This document shows, piece after piece, positions 1,557-56,038 of a stretch of DNA of 64,000 bases (positions are counted from its first letter, which is position 1; every line of letters starts with the position of its first letter). The translations under genes were made by a program, and so were the position numbers. Under the pieces are notes generated by a model. The model had not been told where the DNA came from. It saw nothing but the letters and a program-made list of their open reading frames with translations, and ran no database searches. The stretch spans positions 43,429,082 through 43,493,081 of the forward strand of contig OX344751.2 of assembly GCA_947034885.2 (NCBI GenBank), read 5' to 3'. The stretch is from Thuidium tamariscinum (lineage: Eukaryota; Streptophyta; Bryopsida; Hypnales; Thuidiaceae).

Positions 1557-2505
1557 TTAACCCTTCTAAGGACACAAAAGTGTCCTCATAGTTCAATTCA
1601 AAGTGCTATAATTTTTGCATCCAATGTTCAAATTCAATAAAACTTGCCGAGAAGGCTGTGCATACCAATCTAGTTTGCGTGGTAAAGTTTTCAAATTAAT
1701 CCAAGATGCAATGATTTTTTGGGAGCCAATTAAAGTTCATGGGTTCAATTTGAATTCACCAAATTCTTGTTGATGGCTACAACTTTGGGGGCTTGTATCC
1801 CCTTCATCCAATGTTTGTTTTCAATAAAATTTGTTGGATTATGTTCTTCTTGAAATCTAGTTATTATGGTCAAACTTTCATAGCAATCCAAGTTGTTTTG
1901 GATGTTTGGGTGCAATTCAAAGTTCAAAACAAAACATTTTTGGATTATAGTGAACTTTGATGGCTTATTTCTTTGTCATACAATGTTTGTTTCTAGTATT
2001 TTCTTAGAAAAGTTGTGCCCTCTTCTAGTCTAGTTTCTGTGGATATAATTTCATATCAATTCAAGAAGTTATAAGTGACTAAGAGACATATTAGTAGAAA
2101 GAAGTGCAATTATAGATGTATTTTTTACACCCTTTTTTGCTATTTTTTTGACATTTCGAAGTCATTTTGCAAAACGTTCAAAGCATTTGAATGAAAGTTT
2201 TTCACCAATGACTTTATATGTTGATTTTGAAGCACTTTCAAGTTTAAAGTTTTTTTCATTTGAGTAGGTATAGAAATCAAATTTCACCTCTAAATGTGTT
2301 TTTAGGAAAATTTCAGCACTAAGACATTACAATCTTGCAATCTATGCAGCCAAATGACTCCAAATTTGATCCATGTCATTTACAACATACACACTACAAG
2401 ATTGTATGGTTGAGATTTTCATAGCCTAGTGACATTTAGACTTGTAAGGCTTGAAAAGTAATTATGCTTTTAGGCTTATTTGGATCTTAGGCGATGAAAG
2501 GTTAA
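1557..2505. mobile_element. TTAA-flanked MITE, family 3 (piggyBac-like)
   Basis: Starts TTAACCCTTCTAAGG and ends with a T-rich tail and GGTTAA at 2502-2505, so both borders are TTAA. The interior is homologous to the element at 48813-49730 (shared runs such as 'attcaaagtgctataa' against 'atttgaagtgctacaa'). About 950 bp, no coding frame of note. TTAA duplications with ends starting CCC are the hallmark of the piggyBac superfamily. Confidence 0.6.
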
Positions 2506-3198
2506 CTAAACATTTATTTATTTCTAAAATACCAATTTCTTACACAATTACAATCTAGAAAAATAGAAATTGAGGTTCTAAGTTTTTATTGTGGGCAATT
2601 TTGCTAGTTTTATTAAGGATGCAAATTCTAAGTATTAGCATTTGTGTTCAAATAACTATTATTTTGGTCATTTTGAAGATCAACAAGAATTGAACTAATA
2701 TTGGTATAAGGTAACAACACCTAATAACTTCTATTGACAAGAGTCTTAGGTTGCATTTGAGTACATAGCTAGCTAATTTAAGCACTTCAAAGATCTTCTT
2801 TTGAACACCAATAAGACTTCACTAAAAAACTTTAAGTGTGATGTAATTAAGAACTATGTACGTTTGCTTTTTTGGATGCATTTAGTTGTACTTACCTCAT
2901 CAATGGCTGCTCTTAAAGTTTCAAATTTAGATTTCATATTCAAATCCCAATCAAATCTTTTGAATAGTATCACAATTATAAAAAGGCTAATAGAAATGTA
3001 CTTTTAATAAACTACTTTATATAATACAAGCTATATGCTAATGGAAAATGTATCTTGGAGCACCAAGCTCAGACAATGTAGCTTGAGGCTTATGGACATT
3101 CATTTCTACTATAGTGGTCCCTTTCAAATGTTCTACTAACTCTAAACCACCATCATAGTTGAGTACTTTGGACACTTTTTTTACTAAAAGTGGCATAA
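2506..3198. other. AT-rich intergenic DNA, nothing recognised
   Basis: No conserved frame, RNA gene or paired repeat ends seen. Short open frames here look like chance in AT-rich sequence. Confidence 0.5.
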
Positions 3199-3434
3199 AA
3201 TGTTTTTTCAGGGATTAGAAGACTATTTTAGTCCCATTCCCAATGCTAGGAACAATCAGCATAATAAAAAATAATAAAATAATTTTTTATTAAATTTATT
3301 CAAATTTTGTTTAATTATAAATTTGATGTCGCAGTCTCTCGGCTATGTCAGATCGGAGACGTGGCAAAGTTCCCCAACGTTCCCATAGTCAGGAACTCAC
3401 AATCTTCTAACTAGCAGAAAAAACATCTAATGGC
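3199..3434. mobile_element. MITE, family G (unclassified)
   Basis: Inverted ends: ATGTTTTTTCAGGGATTAGAAG at the left answers CTTCTAACTAGCAGAAAAAACAT at the right. Just inside, both ends carry the motif 'gttcc...aggaac' seen in other family G copies. Target duplication not resolved. Confidence 0.4.
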
Positions 3435-5568: not shown

Positions 5569-5575
5569 CTTTCAT

Positions 5576-5783: not shown

Positions 5784-7119
5784 CATTGGAATTGGAATTT
5801 CAATGACATTAAGGTGAAATGTGACTTTAATTTAAGGAGACCATTGAATTGCAACCTACTAAAAATATCTTCAAATTTCATAAATGCTATTGTCCTTCTT
5901 GAAAGCAACGACCTCTCTCATTTAGTATTCTCCCTCAATACCAGAGTTATCAAGGTAGAAATACTATAAGTGATTAAAATAAGCATTTAAAATAAAACTA
6001 TAGAATTTGAAAATTTTATTGAGAAATTGAATTTAGTGAGTGCAAAAATAAAGATGTAGAAAAATATAAGAAAATGATTTTTTCCTTCAAGAATAAATAT
6101 ATTATTCAATATATACAAAGATTCCTCATATCATTCCATTTCCATCTTATAGCTTCATCTAAAATGGCTATGTTTAGAACTTATTTCTAATTAATCAAAT
6201 GTGATTCAATGAACTTTAACCAAATCAATTTTTTTAAATCAATATAAAGCTAGCTATTATTGATTTTTGAACACCATACTAAAGCATTAACTTAGAGGGG
6301 CATTGTTAATGATATTCTTCCTAGAATTTGTTCAAATTCTTAATAAAGGTAGTGACACTTTTTCATTGTACATATATTCTTTGCAAAATGGAGATGTATT
6401 GATTTAGGATTGGCTTATCAATGGTAGAACATATTTTTGCTGTGAAGTTTTTTCAACATTCATTGTTCTCCTCTCAACCAAAAGAATGGGTGCATAGAAG
6501 ATTTCACAAGCTAGTATATTCTCTTGTGTTCTATAGTTTCACCCCTTCATTGCAGTTGTTTAAAAAAATCTAGGAATTCTAACTTTTCTAATTAGATTTT
6601 TGAATCAAACAAATTCATTCCATCTAATCTTGTAAGTAAACATTATCTACAATTTCTATTTTCCATGCTCACACACCAACTAATCAAGTGAGGGCACCCC
6701 CTCTTCACCCAAAATTGTAGTTGTTTTCCATTGGCTCTTCTTTTCTTTCACCAACTTTTCATTCTTCATAACTAATTGTTGACTTCTCCAATGCTATTAT
6801 GGCATTGCCCTGTTGGCAATCTATCACTACTTTTTTTACATGTTGCAAGTCATGACCTTTTAGAACAAAATTTAACAAAGAAGTTTGCTCACTGAGGAAG
6901 ATGTGACTATCCCTAGTGGAATTTGTAGAAAGCAATGAAACCAATATTCCTAATAGACTCTTCATAAATGTTGGTCATATGATAAAAGTTACTCTTCTTC
7001 TTCTCCTACACTAAATAGAATTAGTAAGGGGACCAAAAAAGTTAATGGGACCTATTAATGAAAATTGAAGATGTTTGAAACATCATATACACCCCAACAC
7101 TTTAGTAACTATTGATGTA
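5784..7119. other. AT-rich intergenic DNA, nothing recognised
   Basis: No conserved frame or repeat boundary recognised between the CACTA MITE and the foldback element. Confidence 0.45.
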
Positions 7120-8513
7120 CAGTGGGGTACCAATCAAAATGTCATTTTCGAATTTGTAGTGAGAAAAATTTCAATACTGCCACCTTTGAAAGCCTCTTGA
7201 GAGGTCAAAAATTGGTATTTTACCACGAAATGTTTACCACAACATTATCTTTAAGTTAATTATATGTATGCAAAATTTCAAGGCCAAAAGATTCACAAAA
7301 AAAAAGTTATTCAAAATCTACCAACATGGGTAGTGGTGAGAAACATTTCACTACTTTCAACTTTGACACCTTCCTAAGGATTGAGTTTTTTTCTTTTGCC
7401 ATGAAATTTTTGTCATGAGAAAATCTCTATGTTTTCAATATGTATAAAAAATTTCAAGGTAAAAAGAATTTTTTTTAAGAAGATATATGAAATCTCCCAA
7501 CAGGTGTAGTTGTGAGAAAATTTTCACAATTGCCAACTTTGACACCCTTCCAAGGACTGAAAAATTGGTTTCTTACCATGAATTGTCTTTGGTGTAGTCA
7601 AATATATGTTGATAATATGTTCTCCAAATTTCAAGTTCAAATGAATTACCAAAAAAAAGATATACAAAATCTCCCAACATTTGTAGTTGTGAAAATTTTT
7701 TCACTATTGCCAACTTTGACACCCTCCCAAGGGCTGAAAATTTATCTATTTAACATGAAACCTTTTGAATAAGATCAACTTTATGTTGATAATATAAGTT
7801 CTAAATTTCAAGTTCAAAACACTTACCCAAAAAAAGATATTCAAAATCTCTCAACATGTGTAGTTGTAAGGTTGAGTTTTTACATTCGTGTCAAACTTTG
7901 CTCCACAAAATAACACTATACTAAGGGCTCAAAAACTCCTCCTCACAACTACACATGTTGGGAGATTTTGTATATCTTTTTTTTGGTAGTTGATTTGAAC
8001 TTGAAATTTGTATCACATATTATCAACATAGAGATGACTTCACAAAAAGAAATTCATGGTAAGAAACCAATTTTTCAGCCTTTGGGAGGGTGTCAAAGTT
8101 GGCAATTGTGAAAATTTTCTCAAAACTACACCTGTTGGGAGATTTCATATATCTTCTTAAAAAAAATTCTTTTTACCTTGAAATTTTATACATATTGAAA
8201 ACATAGAGATTTTCTCATGACAAAAATTTCATGGCAAAAGAAAAAAAATCAATCTTTAGGAAGGTGTCAAAGTTGAAAGTAGTGAAATGTTTCTCACCAC
8301 TACTCATGTTGGTAGATTTTGAATAACTTTTTTTTTGTGAATCTTTTGGCCTTGAAATTTTTCATACATATAATTAACTTAAACTTTATGTTGTGGTAAA
8401 CATTTCGTGGTAAAATACCAATTTTTGAGCTCTCGGGAGGCTTTCAAAGGTGGCAGTATTGAAATGTTTTTCACTGCAAACTCGAAAACAACATTTTGAT
8501 TGGTACCCCACTG
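7120..8513 (+). mobile_element. Long foldback element 1 (1394 bp), TA-flanked
   Basis: Starts CAGTGGGGTACCAATCAAAA and ends with its reverse complement, between TA at 7118-7119 and TA at 8514-8515. The whole element is an inverted repeat around a loop at about 7864-7950. The left arm contains a repeated unit: the phrase 'caactttga' or a close variant falls at about 7182, 7358, 7534, 7711 and 7892, a period near 177 bp. The right arm is shorter by about one unit. TA target and CAGT start suggest a Tc1/mariner-type non-autonomous element; no transposase frame is present. Its transcripts would fold into a long hairpin. Confidence 0.8.
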
Positions 8514-8828
8514 TACAATGAAGATAGATATAGAGAGAGAAATGCAGATTAAATGATATTGGTTCCTTTACAAAATCCATTCAATGTAATCTAATATTTG
8601 AGATCAATGACCAAAGTCAAAAATTTGAATGGAATGGCCAAATTGATGGATAAGGTAGACGAGCCTAATTCCGTTTGCAACCCATTTTCGTCATCCTATA
8701 TTTGGCCCCATTTCCACCCATTCCACCATCTAAATTTGTCCAAAAATGATTCAATTCTGTATAGAAATGTGATAAAATCAATGCATTTATGTCAATTAGG
8801 GTAACGTGGCAATAACTGATTGGTGAAT

Positions 8829-10420: not shown

Positions 10421-11316
10421 TTAACCCCTAAAGGATTGTCTGTCACCTTAGGAGACAATTTGGGTCCAAATTTACACAATATGGTTTCAATTTGTAATAA
10501 ATTTCTTTTCAAATTTTTTTGAGCATGTGTCATTTTGAATCAATGCGTGGGAGAAAAATTTATGGAACAATAAATAAAATGGTTTATTGTTAATAACATA
10601 CAAAAAATCATTAAAAGTCAAAATATATATTTTTTTAAATTTCCCCTAACACTATGTATTTTTATATGTGAAGCTTTGATTCATTCTATTTGGATTAATA
10701 ATGAGAAAGTTATGGATAATCTTAATTTTTGGGGCAATTTAAACATACACTTGAAAAAATAATTTATAGAATTCATTTTTGAATGTAATTTCTGCAATTT
10801 TTATAAAAAATTATTGGAAAGGATTAAGCTTGCTTGCTAGAACAATCTCATCATTGGGATTATTGTAATTTAATTCCATCTCAAAGCTAATAACATTTAG
10901 GTTTCAATTCAATCTTGAACCTACATCTACTTAAAAAAAAATTTAATGAATGATAATTAAATGTTTTTTTGTTGCATTTTCTTTTAGATTTTCAATTTGA
11001 TTTTCAAATATAAAATAGTAAAAAATAAAAATCATTAGTGCAAAAATTTGAAGTTAAAAAGATTCAAAGCCAAAAAATTTAGTCAAACAAGGTGCAAAAA
11101 AACTTGTTTTCTTTCCTTTAAATGTAATATTTTGCATTCTACAGTCAAAGTTTTTGAAATTTCTTCCACATATTCTTATACTAGTCTAATATAAGATACT
11201 ACAATTAGATATTACAAAGTAAAGAATTTTTTTTAAAGTTTTTTTCTCTATGCAACAAAAATGACATTTTTGAGTGGTTTTTGATAGGATTACTACCTTG
11301 GTCTTCTAGAGGATAA
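10421..11316 (+). mobile_element. TTAA-flanked MITE, family 1
   Basis: Starts TTAACCCCTAAAGGATTGTC and ends GGTCTTCTAGAGGATAA. Homologous along its length to the better preserved copy at 46894-47823. The right border is TAA rather than TTAA, a sign of age. Non-coding. Confidence 0.65.
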
Positions 11317-11418: not shown

Positions 11419-11815
11419 TTAACCCCTAAAGCCCTGAACAATGTTTTTTGAGATTATAAATTTTTTAAGGCAATTCACTACAGATGGAGTTTTTGTTTTT
11501 TTTCTTTTAAATTTTGATACAATGTGTACCCGAGGAGTAGCTTTAAGGCCCAACAACTTTCATAACTTTTGACTTCACGATTAAAAAGTTATTGCATGAT
11601 ATGTTGTTTTCTTTACTTGGCGGGCAGCCTGGGCAGCTGAAAAAACTTCTTCAATAAAACTTTTTCTTAAAAAGTGAAATTTAAAATTGATTCTTTAATT
11701 AGGTTTATATAGACATGGGAAGCTTTGAATCATTCCATTTGGATTAATGAGTCAAAAGTTATGAGATTTTTTTAGTTTGTAGGTAGATATGGAGTCAAAT
11801 CATGTGAAACAACTT
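11419..11815 (+). mobile_element. TTAA MITE family 2, left-end fragment
   Basis: Starts TTAACCCCTAAAGCCCTGAA and matches the left parts of the copies at 51697 and 55085 (shared 'ggagtagctttaaggccca' and 'aagttattgcatgatatg'). Homology stops near 11815 with no right end visible, so the copy is truncated or interrupted. Confidence 0.55.
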
Positions 11816-12171: not shown

Positions 12172-12500
12172 AGGTAGAAGGCTCTTAATTGGAGCAGGTT
12201 CTAAAATGATGCCCTACCTTAAATGTACAGTACTTGTACATGTTTCTTTTTCATAGCCTTCAGCAGTGTACTGACAATGTAGATTTTAGCTAGGACGCCA
12301 TTTTAGAGCCCTATGTCCTTTCAACTTCAAAATTTGATAACTAATTCAAAAATTCTCATAAAAATATGAAATGACTTGGGTTAGATGTCAATTCTACTTG
12401 TCTTTCAACAAAAAAATCTAGTGAAAAAAATTTCTAGAAGTTTTACCTCCTTGAAATTTTGTTTCAGCCCTTAGATGGTCCATTATAGGACCTCTTACCT
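12172..12500. mobile_element. MITE, family I (about 330 bp)
   Basis: Near-duplicate of 12706-13031; both carry 'ttctaaaatg(a/g)tgcccta' answered by its reverse complement about 95 bp later, so each has an internal hairpin. Ends AGGTAGAAGGCTC and roughly GGACCTCTTACCT are inverted repeats. Non-coding. Confidence 0.5.
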
Positions 12501-12576: not shown

Positions 12577-13115
12577 AGGGGGAAGCATCCAATGGCGTCC
12601 TTGTATCTAATGCCGTCCGTTTCTAAGTCAACCATTCATTATAGAACAGAAATGTAGTGGGACTGTAGACTGCTTATTGTTTTAGGTCAAATGAAATAGG
12701 CCTATAGGAGGAGGCTCTTGAATGGAGCGGGTTCTAAAATGGTGCCCTATCTTAAATGTACAGTACTTGTACACGTTGCATTTTCATAGCCTTCAGCAGT
12801 GTACTGACAGTGTACATTTTAGCTAGGGCACCATTTTAGAGCCCTATGCTCTTTCAACTTCAGAATTTGATAACTAATTCTAGAGAGCTCCAAAAAATAT
12901 GAAACGACTTGGGTTCGATGCCTATTCAAGCTGTCTTTCAAGGATAATTCTCTGAAAAATATTTCAAGATGTTTGACCTGTCCAAAATTCTGTTCCAGCC
13001 CTTAGATGGTCGGTTTATGGACCTCCTCCCATACCTACATTTATAGCCTAAAATGATTGTGTGCTGTAGAAACAGACGGCACTGGGTACAGGAACGCCAT
13101 TGGGTGCCTCTCCAT
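12577..13115 (-). mobile_element. MITE family H, interrupted by a family I copy
   Basis: Outer element: the left end (GGAAGCATCCAATGGCGTCC) and the right end (CGCCATTGGGTGCCTCTCC) are inverted repeats, matching the intact 219-bp copy at 20879-21097 in opposite orientation. The middle is interrupted by an insert at about 12706-13031. Comparison with the intact copy shows the host sequence resuming at 'tacctacatttatagcct' after the insert. Confidence 0.6.
12706..13031. mobile_element. MITE family I copy nested in family H
   Basis: Begins about TAGGAGGAGGCTCTTGAATGG, ends GGACCTCCTCCCA, and is flanked by TA. Same family as 12172-12500. The hairpin TTCTAAAATGGTGCCCTA with its reverse complement is nearly exact here. 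Confidence 0.55.
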
Positions 13116-16098: not shown

Positions 16099-16823
16099 TT
16101 AACCAAGGAACACTACCAGCACCATTCCATGGCGTTTGGATGACTTCCAAGGGCCAAAAGATAGGGAGAACAATGTTTTTTTCGTCCATTTATTGTTTAG
16201 TGACCATTCATGTTGAGTTACAAAGAGTCTTCAATAGAATTTGCAATCCAACTAATGTTTTTTTTCATGTAATTTAGAAATAATTTTAGAAAACGGATGG
16301 CAAAATTTGCCATTTTAGGGTATTCTGAGATATTGAGTAAAAATGTGATTTTTCCTTGAAAATGACATTTTATGAGTTTGAGCCCAACTAATGAAATGAA
16401 GGTCTTTTCTTCTAGTTTCTACTCCTTTTGAAAAATTCCTCAAAATGAATATTTTATTGCAATATAAATTTTGGCTGCATTTTTAATGTCTATTGTATCC
16501 TAAAAATAGGTGTATATGGAAGTTGAGCTTACACCATGATGTTTGTCATTGTAATATTTACACATGGTGAATTTTTCAGATTTTTTGAGATAATTTCCTA
16601 TTTCCTATGATTTTTACTTCACTTTTTCTTCAAAAAATATCTTAAAATTCAATTTTACTCAAAAAAATCTGAAATTTTTGTGAAGTGAAAAAGACATATA
16701 CTTTCATTTCTGAAAATTAAAACAAAAAATTTCAAGCATGATTGGCTCTAGAACGGTAACAAATTGAGTGACGGGCAAGGGAGTTTCCACCTAGTGGTTA
16801 TAGGCCCATCCTTTAACGGTTAA
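16099..16823 (-). mobile_element. TTAA-flanked MITE, family 4 (725 bp)
   Basis: TTAA at 16099-16102 and 16820-16823. Homologous along its length to 44520-45256: both contain 'cattttatgagtttgagcccaactaatg' or a close variant, and 'gtgaa(a/t)tttttcagattttttgag'. The right end 'ataggcccatcctttaacggttaa' corresponds to 'ataggcccggcgtttcagggttaa' of the other copy. Taken as minus by the orientation of the better 'CCCTTGAAGG' end at 22866. Non-coding. Confidence 0.65.
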
Positions 16824-21097: not shown

Positions 21098-21338
21098 TAA
21101 TTCAAAAGTAGTGCGTTCGTTTTGATGTGTACTGTGTTTTTTTTAATGCAATGGGGTTTCTCCAATTGGCAAAAAAAAAGAGTAAAAAGCAAAAAGTAAA
21201 AAGTAGTGCGTTCTCATACAATTTCAATTGAATAATTATCTAGTGTGAAATATCAAAATTAGTCTAGTGAGAGGCAACCTAATTTCACTACGTAGCATAA
21301 TTGACATCAATAGCAACTTGTGTTGCTGGGTTGAATTA

Positions 21339-21995
21339 AGGTGGGTACACCCAAAAAGCCCTGTTCCTAAAAGCGCCATCTACAGTGCACATACATTTCT
21401 GAAATCAGTCATGTTCATAGACTGTAGATGGCGCTTTCAGAAACAGACATTGACTGTTAATAACTTTTGCATACAGTGGAAACACCCAAAACTGTCCAAA
21501 TAAGGAATTCAGCATAGTTGGAGGCAGAGTTTTCTAATAATTATATTTTTGTAGTATTAGCGAGTGAAAATCATGAATATTAAGAAAAATTAGATTTTTC
21601 GGACATAGTATGTAATTTCTACAAATTTTCAAAGTGTTTTCTCCCTAGACCTGCGGAACTATCCTGTAGGTGCCCCCAAAATTTAACTTTGCAAAAATCA
21701 GCTCTAAGCCAACCAGATTTTCTTATGTGTCCTTCAACTGTGTCAGCAAATTACAATCACACATGTGACAAACACATTAACTACACTCTAGGGACATATT
21801 TGGGTGAATCTATGGTCCATTGGAAGGAACATGTGCGGGAATGGGTGTTTTGCCCTTATGGTATCCAAATCCTGCATTCTTTGGTGTGTTGGAACATGCT
21901 TTCACTTGCCAACAAGACTACATAAAAATTTGAACTAATTAATAGCAGGAAGTAGGCTCAGTATGAATAAGTGGCGCTTTTGTGTGTACCTACCT
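21339..21995 (+). mobile_element. AGGT-ACC element, family B, carrying a nested 383-bp element
   Basis: Outer ends AGGTGGGTACACCCAAAAAG and the near reverse complement GCGCTTTTGTGTGTACCTACCT, flanked by TA on both sides (21337-21338, 21996-21997). Homologous to the uninterrupted copies at 30600-30872 and 44115-44386. An internal hairpin 'gcgccatctacagt...actgtagatggcgc' lies near 21375-21435. Confidence 0.85.
21474..21856 (+). mobile_element. 383-bp TA-flanked element nested in family B
   Basis: CAGTGGAAACACCCAAAAC at the left, GGGTGTTTTGCCCT at the right, flanked by TA (21472-21473 and 21857-21858). The copy at 29189-29571 has exactly the same length. Sister family B copies read straight across this point ('gcatacggtatcc' at about 30731), so the boundaries are certain. 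TA target plus CAGT start suggests a Tc1/mariner-type MITE. Confidence 0.88.
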
Positions 21996-22865: not shown

Positions 22866-23110
22866 TTAACCCTTGAAGGACAGACCTATAACCATAGGTT
22901 TTAAGCCTTGTTGCCTATCAGTCAGTTTATTGCCATTTTGGAACTAGATATGTATGAAAAAATTTACATTTATTTGTCAAAGGTGAAATTACTTGTCTTT
23001 TGTGCTTCACAAAAAACTTAGATTTTTTTTAGGAAAATTGATTTTCAAGTGAATTTTTCGGAAAGAAAGTGAAGAAAAAAGCATATCAAATAGAAAATTG
23101 GATGAAAAGT
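22866..23110 (+). mobile_element. TTAA MITE family 4, left-end fragment
   Basis: TTAACCCTTGAAGGACAGACC, then 'cctataacca' and 'gaactagatatgtatgaaa', matching the copy at 54013. Homology fades after about 23110. TTAA also occurs at 23655 after 'aggggttaa', but I could not show it to be the same element's end. Confidence 0.5.
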
Positions 23111-27258: not shown

Positions 27259-27487
27259 TTAACCCTAGAAGGATAGACTAGTGGTTGTGAAAATCATGCA
27301 TTTTGATGTCATATGACATCATCTCCTTTGAATAAGCCAAATATACTTATTGGAGGTCAAAAATTGTAGGAGATGTTTCCTTTCTACCTCTAATACCAAA
27401 GATGAAAAGTTGCACTTTTGTCCTATAAGGAAAAATTCTTTGTCACTCATAAGACACCAAACGTCCGTTGCAGTGTTCAAGGGTTAA
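27259..27487 (+). mobile_element. TTAA-flanked MITE, family 5 (229 bp), piggyBac-like end
   Basis: TTAA at both ends (27259-27262, 27484-27487). The left end reads TTAACCCTAGAAGGATAGAC, strikingly close to the published piggyBac terminus as I remember it. Homologous, in reverse orientation, to 46319-46548 (shared 'aaatcatgcattttgat' and 'gacatcatct'). Confidence 0.75.
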
Positions 27488-32858: not shown

Positions 32859-33366
32859 TACATGAGAAATATGGAGTTTTTGCAATGCTGTAAGTTTACC
32901 ACACATAGTATTGTTTATATATGGGTGCAATCATTACAAGAAAAATGTTTTCAATCTTAAGAGGAACGAGGAGTGAAAGATTTAATTTCAACTTTTACTT
33001 CATTGTCATACTTAGCCTTCATTTTCATTGAAGAAGTGATTGAGGTTGCAAGATTTAGAAAGCAAATATTGGGTCTTGTCATTTTTATCATTATTTGTTC
33101 TTATTACATTTGATTGTAATTTTAGTAACAAAATAACATTCTTGAACATGAATACTAGGGATGCTAAGCTTACCATGAGTAAGTTGTATTCTTTTCATCA
33201 TAAAGAATCTTGCATTCAAACTTGTCAAAGAATTGTTTTCAATTCGGAACGGAATAAGTCATTGTACAATTATACTATATGACTATATGAAGCCCACATG
33301 CATCTCTATTCTATCACTAGTAGAATAGTGGTTTGTTCTAAGCAAACCTTTGATTTGGCAAACAAC
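32859..33366. other. AT-rich intergenic DNA, nothing recognised
   Basis: No repeat ends or conserved frame between the foldback and the next CACTA MITE. Confidence 0.4.
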
Positions 33367-37466: not shown

Positions 37467-39429
37467 ATGGCATTCGAGGTGGCCAGAGTCCATCAGTTGA
37501 TATGCTCAAGAGTCGAAGACGAAGGTGTGTTTGATGCCTTCAAGACTGCAAGTCACTCCGTCGAAGCGGACCAGAGCTTCCCACGGTTTTGCAGTTCCGA
37601 GGGCTCGGATTTACGCATGTACTGTCCAGCGAGTTCAGTGTACGGTAGTCGCGGTTTTGATGAAGGTCATGAAGCTAGTAATGTACTTACAGAGGCATCT
37701 TCTTGCTCCACCGAGACAGAAAGTGATGAAGAAGACGGTCTTCTTGAGAGCTTGGCTCAACAAATTGCGCAGTCTATGCTTGATGAGGAAGAGTCAAAAG
37801 CTGAAATATGTACCGGTGTTCTCGATGGAAATCGATATATTGGAGCTCAGGATGTACCGAATGTGGATGTTAATGAGGTGAGCATGTTTTATTGGTCTCT
37901 ATGATTTCATGTTCGATTCTTGTGGTTCCACTCGCGTACACAGCCTGCTCAATTGATTTTTTTGTTTGCTGTAAAACGTGATTACCAAAGCTCGTGCATC
38001 TGTCCGGTGTCCTGCTTCCTGTTAATTCTCAATCCTGAAGTTTTGTGATTCACTCTTTTCCCAGTCACGTTGTAGCCTGCATAATCTTCCCTGTTCAGAC
38101 GGTGTATGTGTTCACATTCTCAGGCGCTGTTTTTTCGTGATGAGATTTAAGTAGTGCAGGATTGCTGTTACGGTTGCTTTCTCAATCAGAATCTGACAGT
38201 AGTAGTATTTGTAGGGCCGAGTGTCCCCATCTAGTTGGTCGAGCGGCAGCTGGTTATCCGGCCCTCAGCTATCAGGCAGTCAAAGTAGCTCTAAGGGCTC
38301 TTCCAGAGTTTCATCCCAAGTCTCGTCTCCCTCGTCAGCACCTTCGTCTGGTTATCAAAATGCCTGGGACACTCTCTATGCCGCAGCCGGAGAGGTTGTG
38401 AGATTGAAAATGAACGACGAGAAAAAAGCCTCAATGATCTCCGGTGAGAGACCCTCCCCAGCAAAAGTCTTGAATCAAGCCGTGCGAGGTAATTTGCCTC
38501 AGCAGACTCGACCGTCTGGACAAGGGACAGGACGAAGTGCCACCCACGCTGCAAAGAGGAAAGAAGAGATGACTTTCATGGCTTGTAATCAGGTACTTAA
38601 ACCTGATCTCGCTTTTGGTGACTTTTGCACTTCTGCTGTCCATCAACGATGTGAGGAGGAAAATGTGCACGTTAGGTGCTATTTGGAAACGGGCTTTGTT
38701 CATTTCATGCGGTATCGTATGTCATCATCTGGGCAGTGTACGGAGCACTGCACGATATTCAGATTAATGTGAATTTCTTGTTTGAGTTTTTGTCAATTAT
38801 GTCATTAGCTCTGCCTAGCGTTAACAGAATGTGGGATTTCTCATGTCAGGCGCAACAGAACTGGGCTATGAAATGTGCGGCCTTGAATGCAATGGCTAGT
38901 CAAGGTCGATCTCCATATCCAATGTATCAGCATCAGCAACAAGCGTATAGTCTAGATGGTCATCAAGGGTTCAATAACTATCGTCAGCCAGGAAAATCGG
39001 TCGATAGCAAATCAATACAGAGAAATCGGCAGGCTGTTTCGAATGGGGGTTCGGGTGTGAGGGTTGTTTTTCTAGGCGGACCATCTGGTCGAGAGTCTGG
39101 TGGTACAGGAGTTTTCTTACCGCGTACCTTCGCGACTGCCCCTGAACATAAGAAGAGAAATGGTGGGTTTCTCATCACTACATTTTTGTCAAATGACGTT
39201 TTCCTCAACAGCTCTCCAATATTCTGATCAAACATACAATCAGTTTTTAATTACTCGATTGCATCTTGTTCATACAGATGTTCCTTCGATACACTCTTCT
39301 GGTGTGCCGACTCATTCCAAGAATCCAAGAGACGCTGTTTGGCCCACGTTGCAGCAAAGCATGATCAGATCAAGTTTTCGTCAGCCAGCAGTTCATGAGC
39401 CTTGCCTTCCCACAGAATGGACTTACTAG
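37467..39429 (+). CDS. Plant-specific protein with GTGVFLPR motif, function unknown (four coding exons, 417 aa)
   Basis: Exons read as 37467-37877, 38215-38592, 38850-39162 and 39278-39429; donors GTGAGC, GTACTT, GTGGGT and acceptors TTGTAG, TGTCAG, ATACAG join them in frame (phases 0, 0, 1) to 417 residues. Seen: acidic serine-rich stretch (res. 76-90), LLESLAQQIAQSMLDEEE (92-109), serine-rich linker (140-182), AWDTLYAAAGEVVRLKM (187-203), basic AAKRKEEM (249-256), Q/Y-rich stretch (288-296), GVRVVFLGG (332-340), GTGVFLPR (348-355) and DAVWPTLQQ near the C-terminus. The AWD..YAAAG..., VFLG and GTGVFLPR blocks are characteristic of a plant family of several members in flowering plants, to my knowledge without assigned biochemistry. 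No signal peptide or membrane segment; the charged, low-complexity make-up suggests a soluble, perhaps nuclear protein. No frame damage seen. Confidence 0.78.
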
Positions 39430-39804
39430 AAGCGGTTATGATAGGAAATGTTTGAGCAGCTCGCATTCGAGTTTTAGAATATCTGACCTACTCAGATATG
39501 AGTTTCCAGCTCGCCTGATTCTTTATGCTGCGACTTCATCTGATTTTCAAGGTAGCAGGGGCAGTAGTTTTTGCGCTGATCACCTATTTTGTAAGAAGAC
39601 TCAACGAATTGCAGAAAGAACTTAGCATTGTAAAGTAGTAGAAATGGGCAGACTTGGACTCTGCTGTACAGAAGTCATCAAAACTTTTAAGGAACTTTGG
39701 TTCCTTCACGGGCAGACATTTTTCTCGAGACGGACTCCGGAACTACACAAATAACGTGCACCTTTTTCAAGGGTACTCTGTCAATTTCTAATAATTGCCC
39801 TATC

Positions 39805-39810
39805 AATAAA
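39805..39810 (+). terminator. Poly(A) signal AATAAA of the GTGVFLPR gene
   Basis: AATAAA about 380 nt after the stop codon at 39427-39429, in a T-rich 3' region. It gives a plausible transcript end near 39830. The sequence stays gene-like in composition to about 40330, so a longer 3' end is possible. Confidence 0.5.
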
Positions 39811-40081
39811 CAGAACTGCCATACTCTCTAAAGGTCCGTTCATTTTTTCTGTTCATGAATTTTATGTATTTTCCATTCCTTGTTGCCAGATGCCGTGATC
39901 GTTGAGTTGACACCTCTTCTTCTTACACTCGCAATCTTGAAGGCGACAGTAAGATCGAGGTGGGGTTTATCACAGTAACCTCTAATGACCAGAGATTATA
40001 TTTGCTCTGGCTCTTCTACGCCTTCTTCAATTTCTGTGTCGATTCTTTATGTGTCCATGAGTAGTGTAACGTTAGCTGTAG

Positions 40082-43826: not shown

Positions 43827-44494
43827 CATGATATTCTCAAGAAGATGGCAATCCATTTCTAATCAGCCCCTATTTCCAATCAATAGGCTATTTTCTTTCC
43901 ATGAAGTTATGGTGTAGTTCCCAAAGCAATTGTAGCACATTATGATTGATTGCAAGGCTCTTATAAATGCAACTAGTCTTAGGTTGGTTTTGCAGTCAGT
44001 CTATATCACCATTATAGGTCAGAAAAAATCTTCTACTAAAAAATTCATAATAATTATAAATTATATAATAAAAATCCAAAAAATATGGCATCCTTCCAAA
44101 ATTCTATTTTTGTAAGGTGAGTACATCTAAAATTGCACCTCACCTAAAAGTGCCATCTATAGTTGTTGTACATTTCTGAATTCCATTATGTACCTATTTG
44201 GCTGGAGCGCTTTTAAAAACAAACTTTGAACCTTAATAACTTTTGTATATTGTATCCAAATGCTGCGTTTTTTGGTGCATTGGAACGTGCTTTCACTTGC
44301 CAAGAAGACTATATGAAAATTTGATCAGACCGATAATAGTTATTAGGCACAGTACCAAAAAGTGGCACTTTTAGGTGTACCCACCTTGCATGAAAAAAAT
44401 TGCACTCAAAAAATGGCATTCAAAAAGATGCACTCTACATATGTGTAATTGCTTAAGTGGCTAGGAATGGGTGAAATACTCTAAATAGTGTTTC
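43827..44494 (+). repeat. About 370-bp repeat interrupted by a family B element
   Basis: 'agatggcaatccattt' through 'catccttccaaaattctatttttg' and, after the insert, 'catgaaaaaa...catatgtgtaattgcttaagtgg' match 61115-61480 in order. The insert is the family B copy at 44115-44386. Confidence 0.6.
44115..44386 (+). mobile_element. AGGT-ACC element, family B (272 bp), nested
   Basis: AGGTGAGTACATCTAAAATTG at the left, TTTTAGGTGTACCCACCT at the right. Left flank TA; right flank TG, presumably a mutated TA. The uninterrupted host at 61372-61390 reads 'tttttgtacatgaaaaa', which fixes the boundaries. Confidence 0.82.
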
Positions 44495-44519: not shown

Positions 44520-45256
44520 TTAACCCCTAAGCGCCGCCGGCGCCAATTTTTGGCGTTCGGCAAGCTTCACAGGGGCCCAAAGAGGACATGAACAATAGTT
44601 TTTTTCCTTCATTTTATTTTAGTGACCTTTCATGTTGAGTTGTAAAGAGTCTCCAATTGAGTTTTTAGTCTAACTAATGTTTGTTTTTATGTAGTTGAGA
44701 AGTAATTAGAGAAAACGGATGACAAAATTTGCCATTTTAGTGTATTTTGAGAAATTGACAAAATCTGAAATTTCTCCTTGAAAATGACATTTTCTGAGTT
44801 AGAGCCCAACTAATGAAATGAAGGTCCTCTCCTCCAATTTCTACTCCAATTGAAATTTTGTAAAAATTTGTAAAAATGATTATTTTATTGCAGTTTGCAC
44901 TTTGACTATATTTTTAATGTCCATTACTTTCTAATTATAGATGTACACGGGTAAATTAGTTTACACCATGATGATTTTCACTGTAATGTTCGCACATGGT
45001 GAAATTTTCAGATTTTTTGAGGTTATTTTCTATTTGATATGATTTTTCCTTCATTTTTCCTTCATAAATTTTCAGAAAATACAATTTTCCACAAAAAAAT
45101 CTGAAATTCCTGTGAAGTACAGAGGACATGCAGTTTCATCTCTGAAAAATAAAAATAAAAATTTTCATATGCATCTGATTACAAAATGGCAACAAACTGA
45201 GTGGCAGAGAGTGCGGCCTGAAACCAGTGGTCATAGGCCCGGCGTTTCAGGGTTAA
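44520..45256 (-). mobile_element. TTAA-flanked MITE, family 4 (737 bp)
   Basis: TTAA at 44520-44523 and 45253-45256. Left TTAACCCCTAAGCGCCGCC, right GGCGTTTCAGGGTTAA. The left subterminal 'gcgccgccggcgcc' is a strong GC-rich palindrome. Homologous to 16099-16823 and 54013-54732. Confidence 0.72.
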
Positions 45257-46318
45257 CCAACAATTTGGCGGTTCAGGCCTGCAACTTAGTGGGAATATAA
45301 TCACAAATCCACGACCAGCATTCCCCGCTCCATCCTATCATATCCTGGTCTGCAGTTGACCAATGGATTACTGATTGGTGGATACAGTTCACCTCTGATA
45401 AATGAAAATAACCAGGATATCAATTTCATTTGTGTCAAAAAAAACAAAACAATAAGGACAATGATGTAGGAAGCTTGAAGCAATGGGACTGTTATCAGCC
45501 CAGCACTTATTATTAAATACCCGAGCATAATGACCTTGAGTACATTCCACCGATGATGATGGATGGGTAGTAAGTTTAAGTTTATTTTGACTGCTCCTTG
45601 TCACGTCCTCCACCTCCACCTCATGAGTTCCGAGTGTGTGTGACATAACTCAACTGGGCTGTTGCTGTTATGGTACTTCAATCATAGCTTGGGAATTGAC
45701 AGAAGTTGACTAGTCAATCCGGGTGTGTCAAGTTGAAGAGCAAATGAATGAATTACCCGTCCTGATGAGTTCAATGTCTTTTGAGTGGATAGTGAGGGAC
45801 ATGTTCCCAGGACACGTCCAGAGCCTCAAACTCGGTATTTGGTCGTGTGGAGTCAAAGAAACTTTCCCGTGGCACGTAAGAAGAAGCTCAAAATATACTC
45901 GGGCCCGGACAAAATTGAAGAAGAGACGGCCAAATGGTGAACACTGGTCGTGGCTCTTTGTGTGATTTGGCACAATTCTCAAGCTATGGTTCCATTAATT
46001 CTACATAATTCTCCCCAAAAGGCACACTTTTATATTCAAAAAATAAATGTTCCCGGACTTTATTGATGGGAAGATACTTGAATTTGGGGGGAGATTCCTT
46101 GTGTTGCGATAAAATAAGAAAAAGTGCCCGGGCCGTGTCTTCCCATTCCGTGTTGCCCGTGGGGTTTTGTCTCCAAACACATCCTGGGGTCTCTGGATGA
46201 GGGCTGAAATGCTCACAGTGCACCCCCCAAGTAGTGGGGATGCTCCCACCTACTCCAAAGACAATGTGTCAAGAAAACATTTGCATTTTAAAATTCCCCT
46301 AGACCCTCCTAGGATTTA
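45257..46318. other. Intergenic DNA of mixed composition, unexplained
   Basis: 45290-45720 and 45780-46250 are less AT-rich than the average. 'gtggggatgctccca' near 46236 resembles the end of the element at 27652, but no partner end was found. No conserved protein recognised. Confidence 0.35.
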
Positions 46319-46548
46319 TTAACCCTTAAACGTCGAAGATGACGTTTTGCGTCCGCAGAATGAGAGAGAATCTTCCCTTGTAGAATCGAAGTGCAACTAT
46401 TGGTCCTCGGTTTTAGGGGTAGAAAGGGGAAATCTTCTACGGGGCTTTGACTTCCAATGAATATAATTGGCTTTTCCAAAGTAGATGATGTCACACGGAA
46501 TCAAAATGCATGATTTCCACGGTCACTAGTCCGTCGTTCAACGGTTAA
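46319..46548 (-). mobile_element. TTAA-flanked MITE, family 5 (230 bp)
   Basis: TTAA at 46319-46322 and 46545-46548; ends TTAACCCTTAAACGTCG and CGTCGTTCAACGGTTAA. Reverse-oriented homologue of 27259-27487, nearly the same length. Confidence 0.78.
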
Positions 46549-46893: not shown

Positions 46894-47823
46894 TTAACCC
46901 CTAAAGGACCATTGTCCCCTCGGGGGACAATTTGGAGTTCGGGCAGGTTCCATAGACCTCAATTTTTAATGAATCTTTTTGAAAATTTCTCATAAAATAG
47001 AAAACTGATTAGCTTCATGGGAATGTAATTTTTATTTCAATTGGTGACCGGGAGCAAAAGTTATACCACAAAAAGCCCAAATTTTCATTCGGCGGGCAGA
47101 AATTTTTTTTGCAAAAATTAAAAAAAATTAAAAAAAATTAAAATATCTAAAATAATATATTTTTGCCTACACGTGAAGCTTTGATTCACTCTATTTGGAC
47201 TTATAATGAGAAAGTTATGGACAATCTTGTTTTTCGGGCAATCTAAACAATTTCTTGAAAAAATAACTTATAGGATTCATTTTTGAATGCAATTTTCACA
47301 ATTTTTCAAAAAAAATTGTTGGACAAGGTTATGTTTACTTTCTAGAACAATCTCACCATTGGGATTATTGTATTTCAATCCCATCTTAGAGTTATTAACC
47401 ATTTAGTTTTTCTTTCAATCTTGGACCTACATCTACTTAACAATTTTTTAAAGAATGAAAATCAAGTGTTTTTTGTGTGAAATTTTTTTCCTAGACTCTC
47501 AACTCAATTTCTTAACACAAAAAATTATAAATTCAAAGTCTATAGTGCAATTTTTTAATACAAATTCCAGTCAAAGTCATCTGAAATTGCAAACCACAGT
47601 TCAAAAAAACTTGTATTTCCAACTTTGAATGCTCATATCTTCCAATCTGTACGGTCAAACTTCATGAAATTTTTACCACTTGATTTCAATCAAGTTAAGT
47701 ACAAGATCCTACGGTTAGATTCTTAAAAAATATATATTTTTTGTTTTCTTGGATGAATGCAACAGAAATGGCAGTTTTAAGAGGTTTTTGACAGAAAAAA
47801 AGCCTTGGTCCTTTAGGGGTTAA
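46894..47823 (+). mobile_element. TTAA-flanked MITE, family 1, best copy (930 bp)
   Basis: TTAA at both borders (46894-46897, 47820-47823) with inverted ends TTAACCCCTAAAGGACCA and GGTCCTTTAGGGGTTAA. Subterminal GC-rich palindrome 'gtcccctcgggggac'. Homologues at 10421 and 41461. No transposase frame. Confidence 0.8.
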
Positions 47824-49730: not shown

Positions 49731-50395
49731 TTATAATAAATATGATGAATTGATGAAAAGAATGAACACTAAGATGGAGTAGATGATCAAAGAAAAATAA
49801 CACAATGATGAAAATTTCAAAAGCATTTGAAATTTTCAAAATTGATCTTATTGTAGAACCAACTCTTTCTCCTTCTTGCCACAATATACATTATTTGAAC
49901 ATGAAAAATCTATAATCAATCCTCAATATTTCTAGAAATAGTACCTTAAAAATTCACAAAGTTTATAGAATATATATACTAAAAGGATATAGAATATTTT
50001 CCTTAAATACTTAACCTCTAAATTTTTTTTACTACACTTTCATTAGAAATGCTCTACAACCATCTTTTTTAGGACAAGTACCAAATTTTATAAAAGAATA
50101 TTTTTGGACACATATAATTATATGATCTTGTAGTAAGCTAGTTCAAAAAGATGGGAAAAGAATTTCAAAAATATCTACTATAAAGTTTTTAAGATATTAG
50201 TGTTTGAATTGGCAAATATCTTTTTTCTAATCATATAAATAAATGCATAGCTGCACTTTAGATGCTCATATTTGTATGAAAAAATGTTCAAAATGGTGGT
50301 TACCCTTTGGATTTGTTCTTGAAAGCAAGTTGATTATGTACTTGGAAATTTTCAAATCATTAGGAATTGCACAACGTATAGGAAAAAAATCATTT
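49731..50395. other. AT-rich intergenic DNA, nothing recognised
   Basis: No supported feature. Confidence 0.4.
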
Positions 50396-50685
50396 GAATG
50401 GATTTGAAGGCTCCCAAGGGCCATTTTAGGGTCTATTCGATTGAAATTGTTCAAAATCTGCTAGCTATTTTCAACCATCAAAACAATTACCAAAAAGAAA
50501 TTACCAAAAAAAATTTAGGGTTGTGAAATGTGAATTTTTTTTAAAAAAAAGTCAAAAAATATTAATGACGTGGTATGGTCTTGACCACGTTGAAATCCTA
50601 CATTTTTGGGTTTCCTCGGCAATTTTTGCGTTCCCAAATTGTGGGGACTCGCAGTCTTCTAGAGCCCTCAAATCCATTCTAACGA
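50396..50685. mobile_element. MITE, family G
   Basis: Left GAATGGATTTGAAGGCTCCC and right TAGAGCCCTCAAATCCATTC are good inverted repeats. Contains 'gtggtatggtcttgaccac', an internal palindrome. Confidence 0.5.
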
Positions 50686-50859
50686 GTAAGTAGAAAGAAG
50701 TAGAGAATGAATCAAAATACTAAATTGTTAATGCTTTGTTTATGGAATTGATAAATGTCAATCCCAATTGTTGTATGTTTTAAGAAATAGCCTATACCAA
50801 ATGTTTTTATTTTTTCCAAAATATTAAGAATTGAATAAAATAAAGGACTTCAAAGTTTA

Positions 50860-51239
50860 TCATAGAATGAAGATTCTATAATCACCTACAAACTATCTAC
50901 AAATTGAAATTCCTTATAACTTTCATTTCATTGATCAAAATCAAATGATTCTAAGATTTAAATCATATTTGTACAAATTTAATAAAGCAATTCAAATCTT
51001 ATTTTAAAAGAAGGTTTTTGAGTTGCCTAGATTGCCTGTTGAACAGTGAAAAACAATTATCATACAATAATTTTTTAATGGTAAAGTCAAAAGTTATGAA
51101 AATTGTTGGGCCTTAAAGTTATTCCTTAAGCACATGTTGTGTTTAAATTTTAAAGAAAAAAAAATGAAACTCCATCCGTAATGAGTTGCCTAAGGTTGCT
51201 ATGTTGCCAAGAAATGAAGTTTAGAGCTTTAGAGGTTAA
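50860..51239 (-). mobile_element. TTAA MITE family 2, reverse-oriented end
   Basis: Read on the minus strand from 51239 it starts TTAACCTCTAAAGCTCTAAA and follows the same order of motifs as 51697 and 55085 ('actcattacggatggagttt', 'gggccttaaagttattcc' on the plus strand). The far end was not located; 50860 is only where similarity seems to stop. Confidence 0.45.
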
Positions 51240-51696: not shown

Positions 51697-52100
51697 TTAA
51701 CCCCTAAAGCCCTGAGGTGCGTTTTTTGGCATTCTAAATTTTTTGGGCAGCTCACTACGAATGGAGTTTTTATTTTTTTTGCTGAAATTTTTACACAAGA
51801 TGTACTTGAGGAGTAGCTTTAAGGCCCAATAATTTTCATAACTTTTGACTTTGTGGTTAAAAAGTTATGGCATGATATGTCGTTTTCTATACTCGAAGGG
51901 CGGCCTAAGTAGCTGAAAAAACTTCTTAAATTTTTTTTTTCAAAAGTGAAATTTCAAATTGTTTCTTTAGGTTTTTACACGCATGGAAAGCTTTGTTTCA
52001 TCCCATTTGAATTAAGGAGTCAAAAGTTATAAGCAATTTTAGTTTGCGAGTAGGTATGAAATTTTTGAATTTCTATCTATGAAAATCTATGCGCCATAAC
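51697..52100 (+). mobile_element. TTAA MITE family 2, left part
   Basis: TTAACCCCTAAAGCCCTGAGG, then 'ggagtagctttaaggccca' and 'aaaagttatggcatgatatg'. Similarity ends near 52100; no right end seen. Confidence 0.5.
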
Positions 52101-53180: not shown

Positions 53181-53725
53181 TTAACCCCTAAAAGCCCAAG
53201 GGGATAACACAAAACACAAATGCGTTATAAAATACAAGCTCTATAACTTTTTTTGAAGTTAGCATCAAAGAAAATAATATAAAGCACAAAAAACAGAAAG
53301 TATTTGTATGGTCAAAATTAAAAAATTATTTTTAGATTCTCTTCAAATGAATTTTGAAGATATAACTTCAAAAATTCACTAAAAATATAATCTCTATTTT
53401 GGGGATTTGAAATTTTTATTGATTGGTCAAAATTATGATTTTTATTGATTTGTAAAAAAATGCAAAATATTTAGTAATGAGAGCATCAATGCTTTCCCCA
53501 AATAGTATATTTTTCAACACTAAGCAATATTAAACACTTTGTGCTATTTTTCTTATATATTTTGTTTGACCGTACCGAGTTTAGTTTAGAATATAATTGT
53601 TGAAAGATAATCCAATATTTTCAAAATTTGAAAAAATAAAGTTTTGATAATTTTTTTTTGCCTGAAAATGCTGCTCAACTTTAGGCAATGACCAAAAAAT
53701 GGTTGCTTAGGCACTTAGAGGTTAA
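53181..53725 (+). mobile_element. TTAA-flanked MITE, family 6, inner copy (545 bp)
   Basis: TTAACCCCTAAAAGCCCAAGG at the left and CTTAGGCACTTAGAGGTTAA at the right; TTAA on both borders. Its ends resemble those of the outer element it appears to sit in. Confidence 0.6.
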
Positions 53726-54012
53726 ATGAATTTATAATGTGATTTTTTCTCTAAAATCCGATGAATTTGAGGGTCATTTTTAAGAGCCCTCGATACTAAA
53801 GAAGGTCAAAATTGCAATGAGTACCCATGCACAAAATCTTGATTAGAAAAATCATAGTCAATCATTTTTAAGGTTGAGTTTTTGATGCTTGAAGTAGACT
53901 TCAAAAAGAATTCTCTGAAAATACAATCTACTAAAAATAACAACTTGGTTAAGTTTTTTTTAACTTCAAAGTTTTGCAAGCACCAGATTTTGGTGCCTTA
54001 GGCATTTAGAGG

Positions 54013-54732
54013 TTAAAAGACAAGCCTATAACCACTGATTTTAAGCCTCAATGCCATTACTAAGTTTGTTCCTATTTATGAACTAGATATGTATGAAATT
54101 TATTATTGTTATTTTTTAGAGATGAAGCTACATGTCTTCTTTACTTCACGAAATTTTTAGATTTTTTTGACAAAAATTGATTTTCACAAGATTTTTTTGA
54201 AGAAAATCATATAAAATGAAATATTATTTCAAAAAAATTTAAAAATTACAACACGGGTGTAAATGATAGGGACAAAGATCATGGTGTAAACTCTAATCCT
54301 GTTTCATTCCATAATTAGAGTATAGAAGACATCAAAAATATATTTGAAGTTCAAATTGCAATAAAATATTCAATATTACAAATTTTTCCAAAATTACAAA
54401 TGGAGTTGAAACTAGAATAGATGACCTTCATTTTGTTAGTTAGACTCAAATTCAAAAAGTATCTTTTTTGTGAAGAAATTTTGAATTTAGAGCAAGTAGT
54501 GACAACTTCCCAAAATACATTGAAAATAGAATATGTTGGATCCGTTTTCTTAACCAATTTCTTATTCACATTAAAACAAACACTCACAAGACTAAAAAGT
54601 GAATTAGGTACTCTTCATAATTCTTTGTGAAAGGTCAAGAAAAAAGAAACGGATCAAAATTGCTTTCAATGTCCCTCTACACTAGTGCAGAGTCATCCAA
54701 ATGCCGCAAACGGCGTCGTAGGCACTAATTGT
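54013..54732 (+). mobile_element. TTAA MITE family 4, third copy
   Basis: Begins at the same TTAA that closes the preceding element, then 'gacaagcctataaccact' and 'gaactagatatgtatgaaa', matching 22866, and ends with 'aaacggcgtcgtaggcacta', the counterpart of the GC-rich end at 44520. Both terminal CCC motifs are eroded. Confidence 0.5.
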
Positions 54733-56038
54733 TGATCATGTCTAGTAGCCAACTTCTAGGGATGCAATTTTTCCAACTAAAATTTGAATTTTATATTTTT
54801 TGTCCTTTTCAAGGTTGAGACCAATAAGACAATGACACATGTCCCAAATTAGTGAGTGGAAGAAGTGAGCGGAAAGTAGTTATAGAATGATCAAAATTGG
54901 AAGACTCTAAACTTTGGCTACTAGTGAATTGCAGTTTTTGCTTCCCAAAATTCACTCTAAATACAATTTTGGGAATAAAAACTTTAAAATTTTGCTATCC
55001 CCATATTTCTTATCTTCCAAAATGGGAATGGGAAAAATTTATCCACCACCTCATACTACTATGCACCATCTACTCCGTGATTGCTTAACCCCTAAAGGAC
55101 CAGAGTGCCTTTTTTGGCAACATAGCGATTTTGAGTAGGTAGTGTGACTAGAGATTTTGATGTTTTGGAACCAAACTTTAATAGAAGGTGTGGATGAGGA
55201 GTATCCTCAAAGACCAACAATTTTCGTGACTTTTGACTACATGGTTGAAAAGTTATTGCATGATATGTTGTTTGTTTCTCAACTCGAGTAGTTTGGGTAG
55301 ATAAGAAAAAATCACTTTTGGGGGAAATAAAAGTTTGAAATTAATTTTATAGATTTATATATACGTGAAAAGCTTTGAATCATTCCATTTGGATTAATGA
55401 GTCAAAAGTTGTGAAGAATTTTAGTTTCTGGACAGTTATGGATTCTCTACTCTAAAAAAAACTTTGAAGTCCTTTATTTTACTCAATTCTCAATATTTTT
55501 GAAAATTAATTAAAAGATTGGGTGTAGATAGTTTATTACAACATTTGAACCATTGGGATTGGCATTTTTCAATTCAACAAATAAATTGTTAACATTTTAG
55601 TATTTTGAATCATTCTCTCCTTTTTTCTACTTTCTAATTTTTTTGTACATGTTGTACAATTCCGAATGATTTGAAAATTTTCAAGCATGTAGCCAACTTG
55701 AATTGAAGAATGAAACCAAAAAGTAACAACTATTTTAAAAAGAAATTCATACAAATGTGGCCTTTTGAATTGCAACTGCTTGGATTTTTGTAGTGGTAAA
55801 AAAAGGACTTTTGCAACTTCAAATACTTATATCTTGCAATCTACACGACGAAAATTTTTGAAAATTTTTCTACATATTTTCAAGTTAGTGCACTAAAATA
55901 TACTATGATTGCATTATTCCAAAAATGTTTTTTTCCTAAAATTTGATAGTTGTCCTAGAAATGATAGTTTTGAAGCAGTTTTGGTGAAAACATAGTCAAA
56001 AACCTTTAGGGGTTAAATGATTGGATACTAGTGCCTCT
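54733..56038. mobile_element. Family C element interrupted by a TTAA element
   Basis: Left part 54733-55084 matches family C interior ('tttttgtccttttcaaggttgag', 'gacacatgtcccaaattagtgag', each with small changes). After the insert the right end 'tagtgcctctacctta' completes it. The left terminus is not clear. Confidence 0.55.
55085..56016 (+). mobile_element. TTAA-flanked MITE, family 2, complete (932 bp)
   Basis: TTAA at 55085-55088 and 56013-56016 with ends TTAACCCCTAAAGGACC and AACCTTTAGGGGTTAA. The host family C copy at 57424 carries a single TTAA (57817-57820) at the equivalent place, giving a direct empty-site comparison. Confidence 0.85.

Follow-up and report, generated by a model that had tools for sequence, protein, structure and literature searches.

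Small elements bounded by TTAA in a moss window

The window, a stretch of 64,000 nucleotides from the moss Thuidium tamariscinum (assembly GCA_947034885.2, contig OX344751.2, positions 43,429,082 to 43,493,081), carries small elements that begin with TTAACCC and end with GGGTTAA. At least a dozen such elements or fragments had been described in a sequence-only reading as piggyBac-like miniature inverted-repeat transposable elements (MITEs). That count was fair, although not every TTAACCC in the span was shown to be an element end. The several length families it had named were recovered as complete elements of 229, 230, 545, 725, 737, 930 and 932 bp (Table 1), with credible ends on both sides in all seven, and no open reading frame of 110 amino acids or more was listed in any complete element. 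Judged by their observed anatomy, matching ends, TTAA sites, empty sites and near-identical dispersed copies, the window elements are almost certainly small non-autonomous piggyBac derivatives that would be served by piggyBac transposases of the same moss genome.

The short terminal word itself was not very telling. TTAACCC occurred 22 times in the window against a shuffle mean of 10.9 and a shuffle maximum of 20, an approximately twofold excess that is weak alone and might be expected if TTAACCC were simply a common short word in AT-rich DNA. The longer terminus TTAACCCCTAAA, however, was present eight times against 0.01 expected, and in the whole genome TTAACCCCTAAANG was counted 14,247 times as opposed to 16 for the pattern read backwards. 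Supposing both ends to be perfect in every element, this would correspond to about 7,100 elements with that type of terminus. With the copy and flank data given below, chance is refuted for the multi-copy families, and as a general explanation its probability is negligible; it may hold for some of the single TTAACCC sites in the window that were not tied to any element (1557, 8998, 27484, 34886, 48813 and 52405).

Copies of the 930-, 737- and 230-bp elements were searched for in the whole genome (363 Mb; ten largest contigs 24-54 Mb). Since about 40 best candidates were scored per search, all copy counts are lower bounds. The 930-bp element had at least 39 other full-length copies at 96-97% identity and one partial copy at 72% (best 40 of 6,467 candidates), the 737-bp element at least 40 others at 93-99%, nearly all of full length, plus two partial ones, and the 230-bp element at least 39 others at 95-96% and one at 80%. 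The listed copies of all three were spread over contigs C1 to C10.

The flanks of these copies were checked in part, for 30 copies and for one terminus genome-wide, as the sequence-only reading had proposed, and the predicted TTAA was found together with related empty sites. The exact 5′ terminus of the 930-bp element (first 21 bases inside TTAA) occurred 576 times in the genome, and TTAA lay directly outside it in 539 cases. Among 30 copies of this element (L009-L038, including the one in the window) 29 had TTAA at both ends, L012 being the sole fetched copy in which it was lost at one end. TTAA thus stands on both sides of the elements as in piggyBac, and it did so likewise in 11/11 copies of the 5,096-bp element described below.

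Abutting ends with one common TTAA, AGGGTTAACCCYTWA, were found 297 times in the genome and only seven times for the pattern read backwards, a few sites being counted on both strands. This excess suggests that resident elements receive new insertions at their TTAA ends. In the window, 27257-27264, 27482-27489 and 45251-45258 are candidates for such an arrangement, with putative element ends as neighbours.

Empty sites were sought by joining the two flanks of an element across one TTAA, for 41 entries in all (8 window elements and 33 loci, with the window 930-bp copy entering twice), and by comparing the joined flanks with the fetched sequences. Thirty matches, from 8/41 entries, crossed the joined junction, and five of them kept an exact single TTAA (L012 twice, L014, L020 and L022). 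When the joined flank of the window 930-bp copy was compared with the whole genome (best 40 of 78 candidates), 44 matches were obtained, of which 38 crossed the junction uninterrupted at 73-89% identity, two were its own halves, one ended exactly at TTAA and three were short pieces. Since the crossing matches end about 50 bases past the junction, this copy is located close to one border of a different repeat copy. A dispersed repeat present in the window at 30598-30875, 44112-44387 and 21337-21473 holds the insertion point of the 930-bp copies L014 and L022.

Autonomous elements and their transposase

A search of the genome with the piggyBac transposase profile PF13843 (DDE_Tnp_1_7), which had been suggested as a way to find an autonomous partner with the same ends, gave 116 scored matches among 658 candidates, with a best E of 5.7e-80, and it did yield transposase-bearing elements for several window families. 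The same profile had no match in 14 control genomes; this control is weak because those genomes appear to be prokaryotic.

The best delimited of these elements is 5,096 bp long (EL5096), starts with TTAACCCCTAAACGCCGGC and at its other end reads TTAACCCTGAAACGCCGGG inwards. Its boundaries were set where copies cease to match, with no search for TTAA, and the similarity ended at TTAA. Copies L039 and L040, and likewise L039 and L041, were 99.96% identical, differing by two bases in each pair. Altogether 11 full-length copies were found on five chromosomes, eight scoring as the query itself and three slightly lower, and beyond them nothing exceeded 71% (best 40 of 119 candidates). The eight copies other than L039, L040 and L041 had TTAA on both sides in 8/8 cases, and their flanks differed, the longest common flank word being 12 bases. 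One copy (L080) is inserted right at a TTAA that follows CCTTTAGGG, a sequence resembling the end of an older element.

The 5,096-bp lineage thus appears, with good support from its copies, to have moved very recently. A set of immobile piggyBac fossils, with nothing moving now, is suggested by the several decayed or truncated copies in the window and by the 930-, 737- and 230-bp copies, which mostly lie several percent off the window copy. We nevertheless consider it unlikely, given eight copies scoring as identical among 11 of full length at unrelated TTAA sites on five chromosomes, and aligned pairs that differ by two bases only.

The 1,023-amino-acid frame of EL5096 matched PF13843 over positions 4-349 of 349 (E 5.9e-79) and aligned through the catalytic motifs to the closest solved chain, piggyBat 9c0f (E 3.4e-27), and to piggyBac 6x67. 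In 9/9 aligned domains (about seven distinct, three near-identical; 37-100% mutual identity) the D-D-D motifs were kept, including the three aspartates which we take to be catalytic in piggyBac. A Cys/His-rich C-terminal tail was recognised by eye in the same 9/9 domains, and no Pfam match was obtained in the tail.

Termini were then sought around other transposase domains. Downstream of 20 further domains, GGGTTAA was present in 15 flanks at a distance of 1.0-1.6 kb; none of the 20 had TTAACCC on that strand. Upstream of 17 loci with a 3′ end, TTAACCC was found in 15 (3/4 in the first set and 12/13 in the second). Counting EL5096, both termini, TTAA-CCC and GGG-TTAA, were obtained at 16/18 transposase loci, giving elements of about 4.9-6.4 kb. 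No TTAACC was found within 3.8 kb upstream of L060, whose 3′ end is like that of the 930-bp family (family A), and no element end within 1.5 kb of L004, L006, L007 and L008. L002 had no 3′ end, L003 had one and was left out of the upstream follow-up, and where a flank offered several candidate ends (3′ of L047, 5′ of L005) one was picked by eye.

As CCC had partly been used to find most ends, terminal repeats were assessed by the match between the two ends of one element. The mean was 12.06/14 within elements compared with 8.88/14 against the ends of other elements, a difference reached in 0/20,000 permutations. The elements thus have short inverted terminal repeats starting with CCC, as does piggyBac. 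In the autonomous elements with CGCCGG-like ends (L001, L005, L040, L050, L059 and L062) ACCGTG or ACCGCG was seen by eye in 6/6 3′ ends, 54-59 bases inside TTAA, and might correspond to the second internal site that is bound in piggyBac.

As piggyBac has been reported mainly from animals, a genome not from a land plant, or transposases brought in by animal contamination, had to be weighed. Both are very improbable: genes for PsaD and PsaF are located on C1, C2 and C7, large contigs which also carry transposases, they match moss photosystem chains well, and the listed copies of the window elements are found on contigs C1 to C10. For PsaF (L100) the best chains were 8htu, 6l35 and 7ksq (310-293 bits), followed by 9lut (277) and others at 260 or less. 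For PsaD (L043) the long chain 9vfj was top over three stretches, followed by 7ksq, 8htu and 6l35 (188-185 bits), 9lut (180) and others at 170 or less. We take 7ksq, 8htu and 6l35 to be Physcomitrium chains.

Partners of the window elements and the subterminal palindrome

To pair window elements with transposase-bearing ones, 45 bases of both ends were compared, and significance was taken from 300 shuffles (Table 1). The 930-, 737- and 545-bp elements each had a different best autonomous partner; that of the 930-bp element was not visible among the first 3′ ends and emerged with the 5′ ends. In common with EL5096, the 737-bp element had 38 bp (89% identity) at the 5′ end and 20 identical bp at the 3′ end. 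Because only these 38 + 20 bp are common, it is not a simple internal deletion of EL5096, and it is better described as a family that uses ends similar to those of EL5096. The elements are thus short, non-coding and of high copy number and have ends in common with an autonomous partner, as MITEs do, with the partner being weak for the 229- and 230-bp elements; compared with MITEs in general, those of 725-932 bp are partly long for the class.

In the piggyBac of Trichoplusia ni (T. ni), according to the accessible part of the report, the cysteine-rich domains bind one end as a dimer, at a palindrome that spans bp 17-33 with its centre at about bp 25, and the same repeat is also found in the other end, further in (PMC7351741). 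In the moss, a palindrome centred at 24-25.5 was present in 4/4 of the first 5′ ends (shuffle mean 0.04 for the four) and in 0/18 3′ ends. As it was first noticed by inspection, a rule was fixed in advance and then applied to 13 new loci, of which eight passed; other-strand TTAACC sites passed in 0/4 cases. Among window ends 3/27 passed, a number reached in 6/2,000 shuffles. Most of the moss 5′ ends therefore have a piggyBac-like palindrome near bp 25, a feature as in T. ni that is not established as defining the superfamily. By analogy, end recognition may be asymmetric and work as in the moth element.

The partners and the palindrome also bear on the alternative named in the sequence-only reading, Sola3, and on any other superfamily that inserts at TTAA by means of a transposase not of the piggyBac type. 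A TTAA target alone is not known to separate these superfamilies. Sola is listed among plant terminal inverted repeat (TIR) superfamilies in the accessible part of a review (PMC10741241). Elements with similar ends, however, contain a PF13843 transposase, which contradicts Sola3 for the 930-, 737- and 545-bp families, and the palindrome near bp 25 agrees with piggyBac. With PF13843 found instead, Sola3 is not needed and seems exceedingly improbable, although no Sola profile was searched, whereas the piggyBac identity proposed at the outset is supported for several window families by autonomous elements with similar ends and is nearly certain.

Table 1. Elements and fragments in the window, with the best end match among autonomous elements (score; next best) and the number of shuffles reaching it
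Feature	Coordinates	Strand	Observations	Best partner by ends	Shuffles
930-bp non-autonomous piggyBac element (family A), complete	46894..47823	+	TTAA on either side; its terminal 18 bp form a perfect inverted repeat	L047el (48; next 23)	0/300
932-bp element, diverged family A relative	55085..56016	+	66.5% over last 209 bp; first 18 bp identical to 930-bp element	L047el (25; next 20)	0/300
737-bp non-autonomous element	44520..45256	+	Ends nearest to the 5,096-bp autonomous element	5,096-bp element (42; next L062el 40)	0/300
725-bp element, 737-bp family, 5′ (left) terminus decayed	16099..16823	+	77% over 712 bp to 44520-45256	L059el and L001el tied (25)	0/300
230-bp non-autonomous element	46319..46548	+	Multi-copy in genome	L001el (24), L005el (23)	1/300, modest
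229-bp element, inverted relative of 230-bp element	27259..27487	-	74% over 230 bp, reversed; GGTTAACC at both ends	(20)	5/300, weak
545-bp element	53181..53725	-	Ends pair with autonomous L048el; possible alternative end 54016	L048el (37; next 29); alternative 53181-54016 (29)	0/300; alternative 0/300
Decayed family A relative	10421..11316	+	74% over 688 bp to 46894-47823; right terminus without GGTTAA		
5′ fragment of 932-bp type	11419..11791	+	80% over 373 bp to 51697-52058		
Decayed reversed relative of 932-bp element	50203..51239 (low boundary approximate)	-	71-72% over two stretches		
5′ fragment of 932-bp type	51697..52045	+	70% over 355 bp		
Terminal fragment, 3′ end of 737-bp family	22866..23099	-	74% over 235 bp, reversed		

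A right end at 52184 was also considered and rejected, as it does not resemble a terminus. Apart from the TTAA elements, the window contains inverted-repeat elements of about 1-1.4 kb at 7115-8517, 31628-32863, 57920-59324 and 59310-60304, with arms 82-95% complementary and an internal period near 177 bases that is similar between the four sites. A direct repeat of 233 bases (12176-12408 and 12709-12941) is 87% identical, with its copies 533 apart. Probable host genes are a 433-amino-acid frame at 63-1364 on the reverse strand, with a match to NTR2 (PF15458, E 2e-6), and a GC-rich stretch with several open frames at 35799-39227 (GC 0.46 in 36001-40000).

A piggyBac system in a land plant

Several observations weigh against small piggyBac derivatives with transposase-bearing partners in the same genome, or restrict how far that reading extends. 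Movement is deduced from sequence, and the transposase is predicted from open reading frames. In 25/30 junction-crossing matches, at 66-85% identity, the TTAA was altered by base changes or gaps. Five of the 20 downstream flanks had no GGGTTAA and were left out of the upstream follow-up, and the own-end match was poor in L061el (8/14) and L062el (9/14). Partner assignment was modest for the 230-bp element and weak for the 229-bp element, that of the 737-bp element was almost equalled by L062el, and the latter element's limited similarity to EL5096 does not fit a simple deletion derivative. Of the 13 new loci, five did not satisfy the rule for the palindrome: three, each with a CCC end, scored one step below it, L051el had none and L064 lacked a TTAACCC end. 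The loci that passed are not independent because several are relatives. At L002 the nearest upstream TTAACC, 437 bases before the transposase domain, had no palindrome; its closeness to that domain led to its omission from the palindrome counts.

In the mechanism that we favour, the small elements would carry little beyond the ends recognised by the transposase, and this enzyme, a putative DDD transposase with a C-terminal cysteine-rich domain, would come in trans from full-length elements, about 5 kb long, at other places in this moss genome. Most likely as in T. ni piggyBac, the cysteine-rich domains would bind one end at its palindrome near bp 25 and the catalytic domains would cut at CCC/GGG, after which the element would join a new TTAA, then present on both sides. 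Several lineages of transposase appear to coexist, each with ends of its own, and for several of them there are small derivatives. From the sequence data we infer binding, cutting, mobilisation in trans and present activity.

Two further systems invite comparison, namely MITEs of corals, which we presume to be related to piggyBac, and piggyBat, whose host is a bat. By sequence piggyBat (9c0f) is the nearest solved chain to the moss transposase, but identity is low. The coral elements (PMC2872659) are likewise small and non-autonomous, whereas here the host is a land plant and transposase-bearing lineages lie in the same genome. T. ni piggyBac (6x67; PMC7351741, accessible part) agrees with the moss elements in its D-D-D domain, TTAA target, CCC ends and palindrome at about bp 25 of one end, and it has a C-terminal cysteine-rich, zinc-binding domain to which the Cys/His-rich tail of the moss domains may correspond. 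The moss system differs from it in its host, in a frame of 1,023 amino acids with a long N-terminal part, in elements of about 5 kb and in sequences beyond CCC that vary between lineages; and while T. ni has the repeat in its other end as well, the moss 3′ ends showed no recognisable palindrome of this kind.

The sequence-only reading had set the elements against the cut-and-paste superfamilies usual in flowering plants, a comparison that is apt but indirect because the host is a moss. In the accessible text of a 2023 review of plant transposon annotation, seven plant TIR superfamilies are given, which also move by cut and paste, have inverted ends and produce MITE derivatives, and piggyBac is unnamed (0 occurrences; PMC10741241). 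Against novelty, the accessible parts of other papers state that piggyBac-like elements occur in plants (PMC8086355, PMC10813416), that piggyBac is occasional in plant genomes, with red algae as an example (PMC12732532), name PiggyBac within a list of superfamilies in a sentence on plants (PMC10794571), and give 1,230 PiggyBac entries (122 kb) in a repeat table of the fern Ceratopteris (PMC6890710). For the moss Ptychostomum knowltonii, TIR elements are reported as 29% of the genome with CACTA as the largest TIR class (PMC11704416, accessible part). A Niphotrichum paper was rejected as a bryophyte report of piggyBac, the word there being 'piggybacking'. No description of piggyBac in a moss was found in an open-access library; subscription journals and Repbase were outside this scope, and priority is not established. 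Novel here are the host and the abundance of the elements, whose kind is known; host and vigour are the unusual points, with many transposase-bearing piggyBac lineages in a land plant.

To our knowledge, common plant annotation pipelines have no piggyBac class, and would assign such TTAA elements to other TIR superfamilies, for example CACTA; for this reason piggyBac in mosses may have gone unrecognised. It is possible, and we put this forward tentatively, that in this moss, perhaps across mosses, piggyBac ranks as a major class of DNA transposons and one that is moving at present. The palindrome position common to moss and moth elements suggests that asymmetric end recognition is old. Our results also suggest that TIR annotations of mosses need rechecking, and a plant-adapted piggyBac is a possible genetic tool. 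With many piggyBac lineages, thousands of matching ends and near-identical copies in one land plant, the host range of piggyBac and its inheritance in plants become directly testable.

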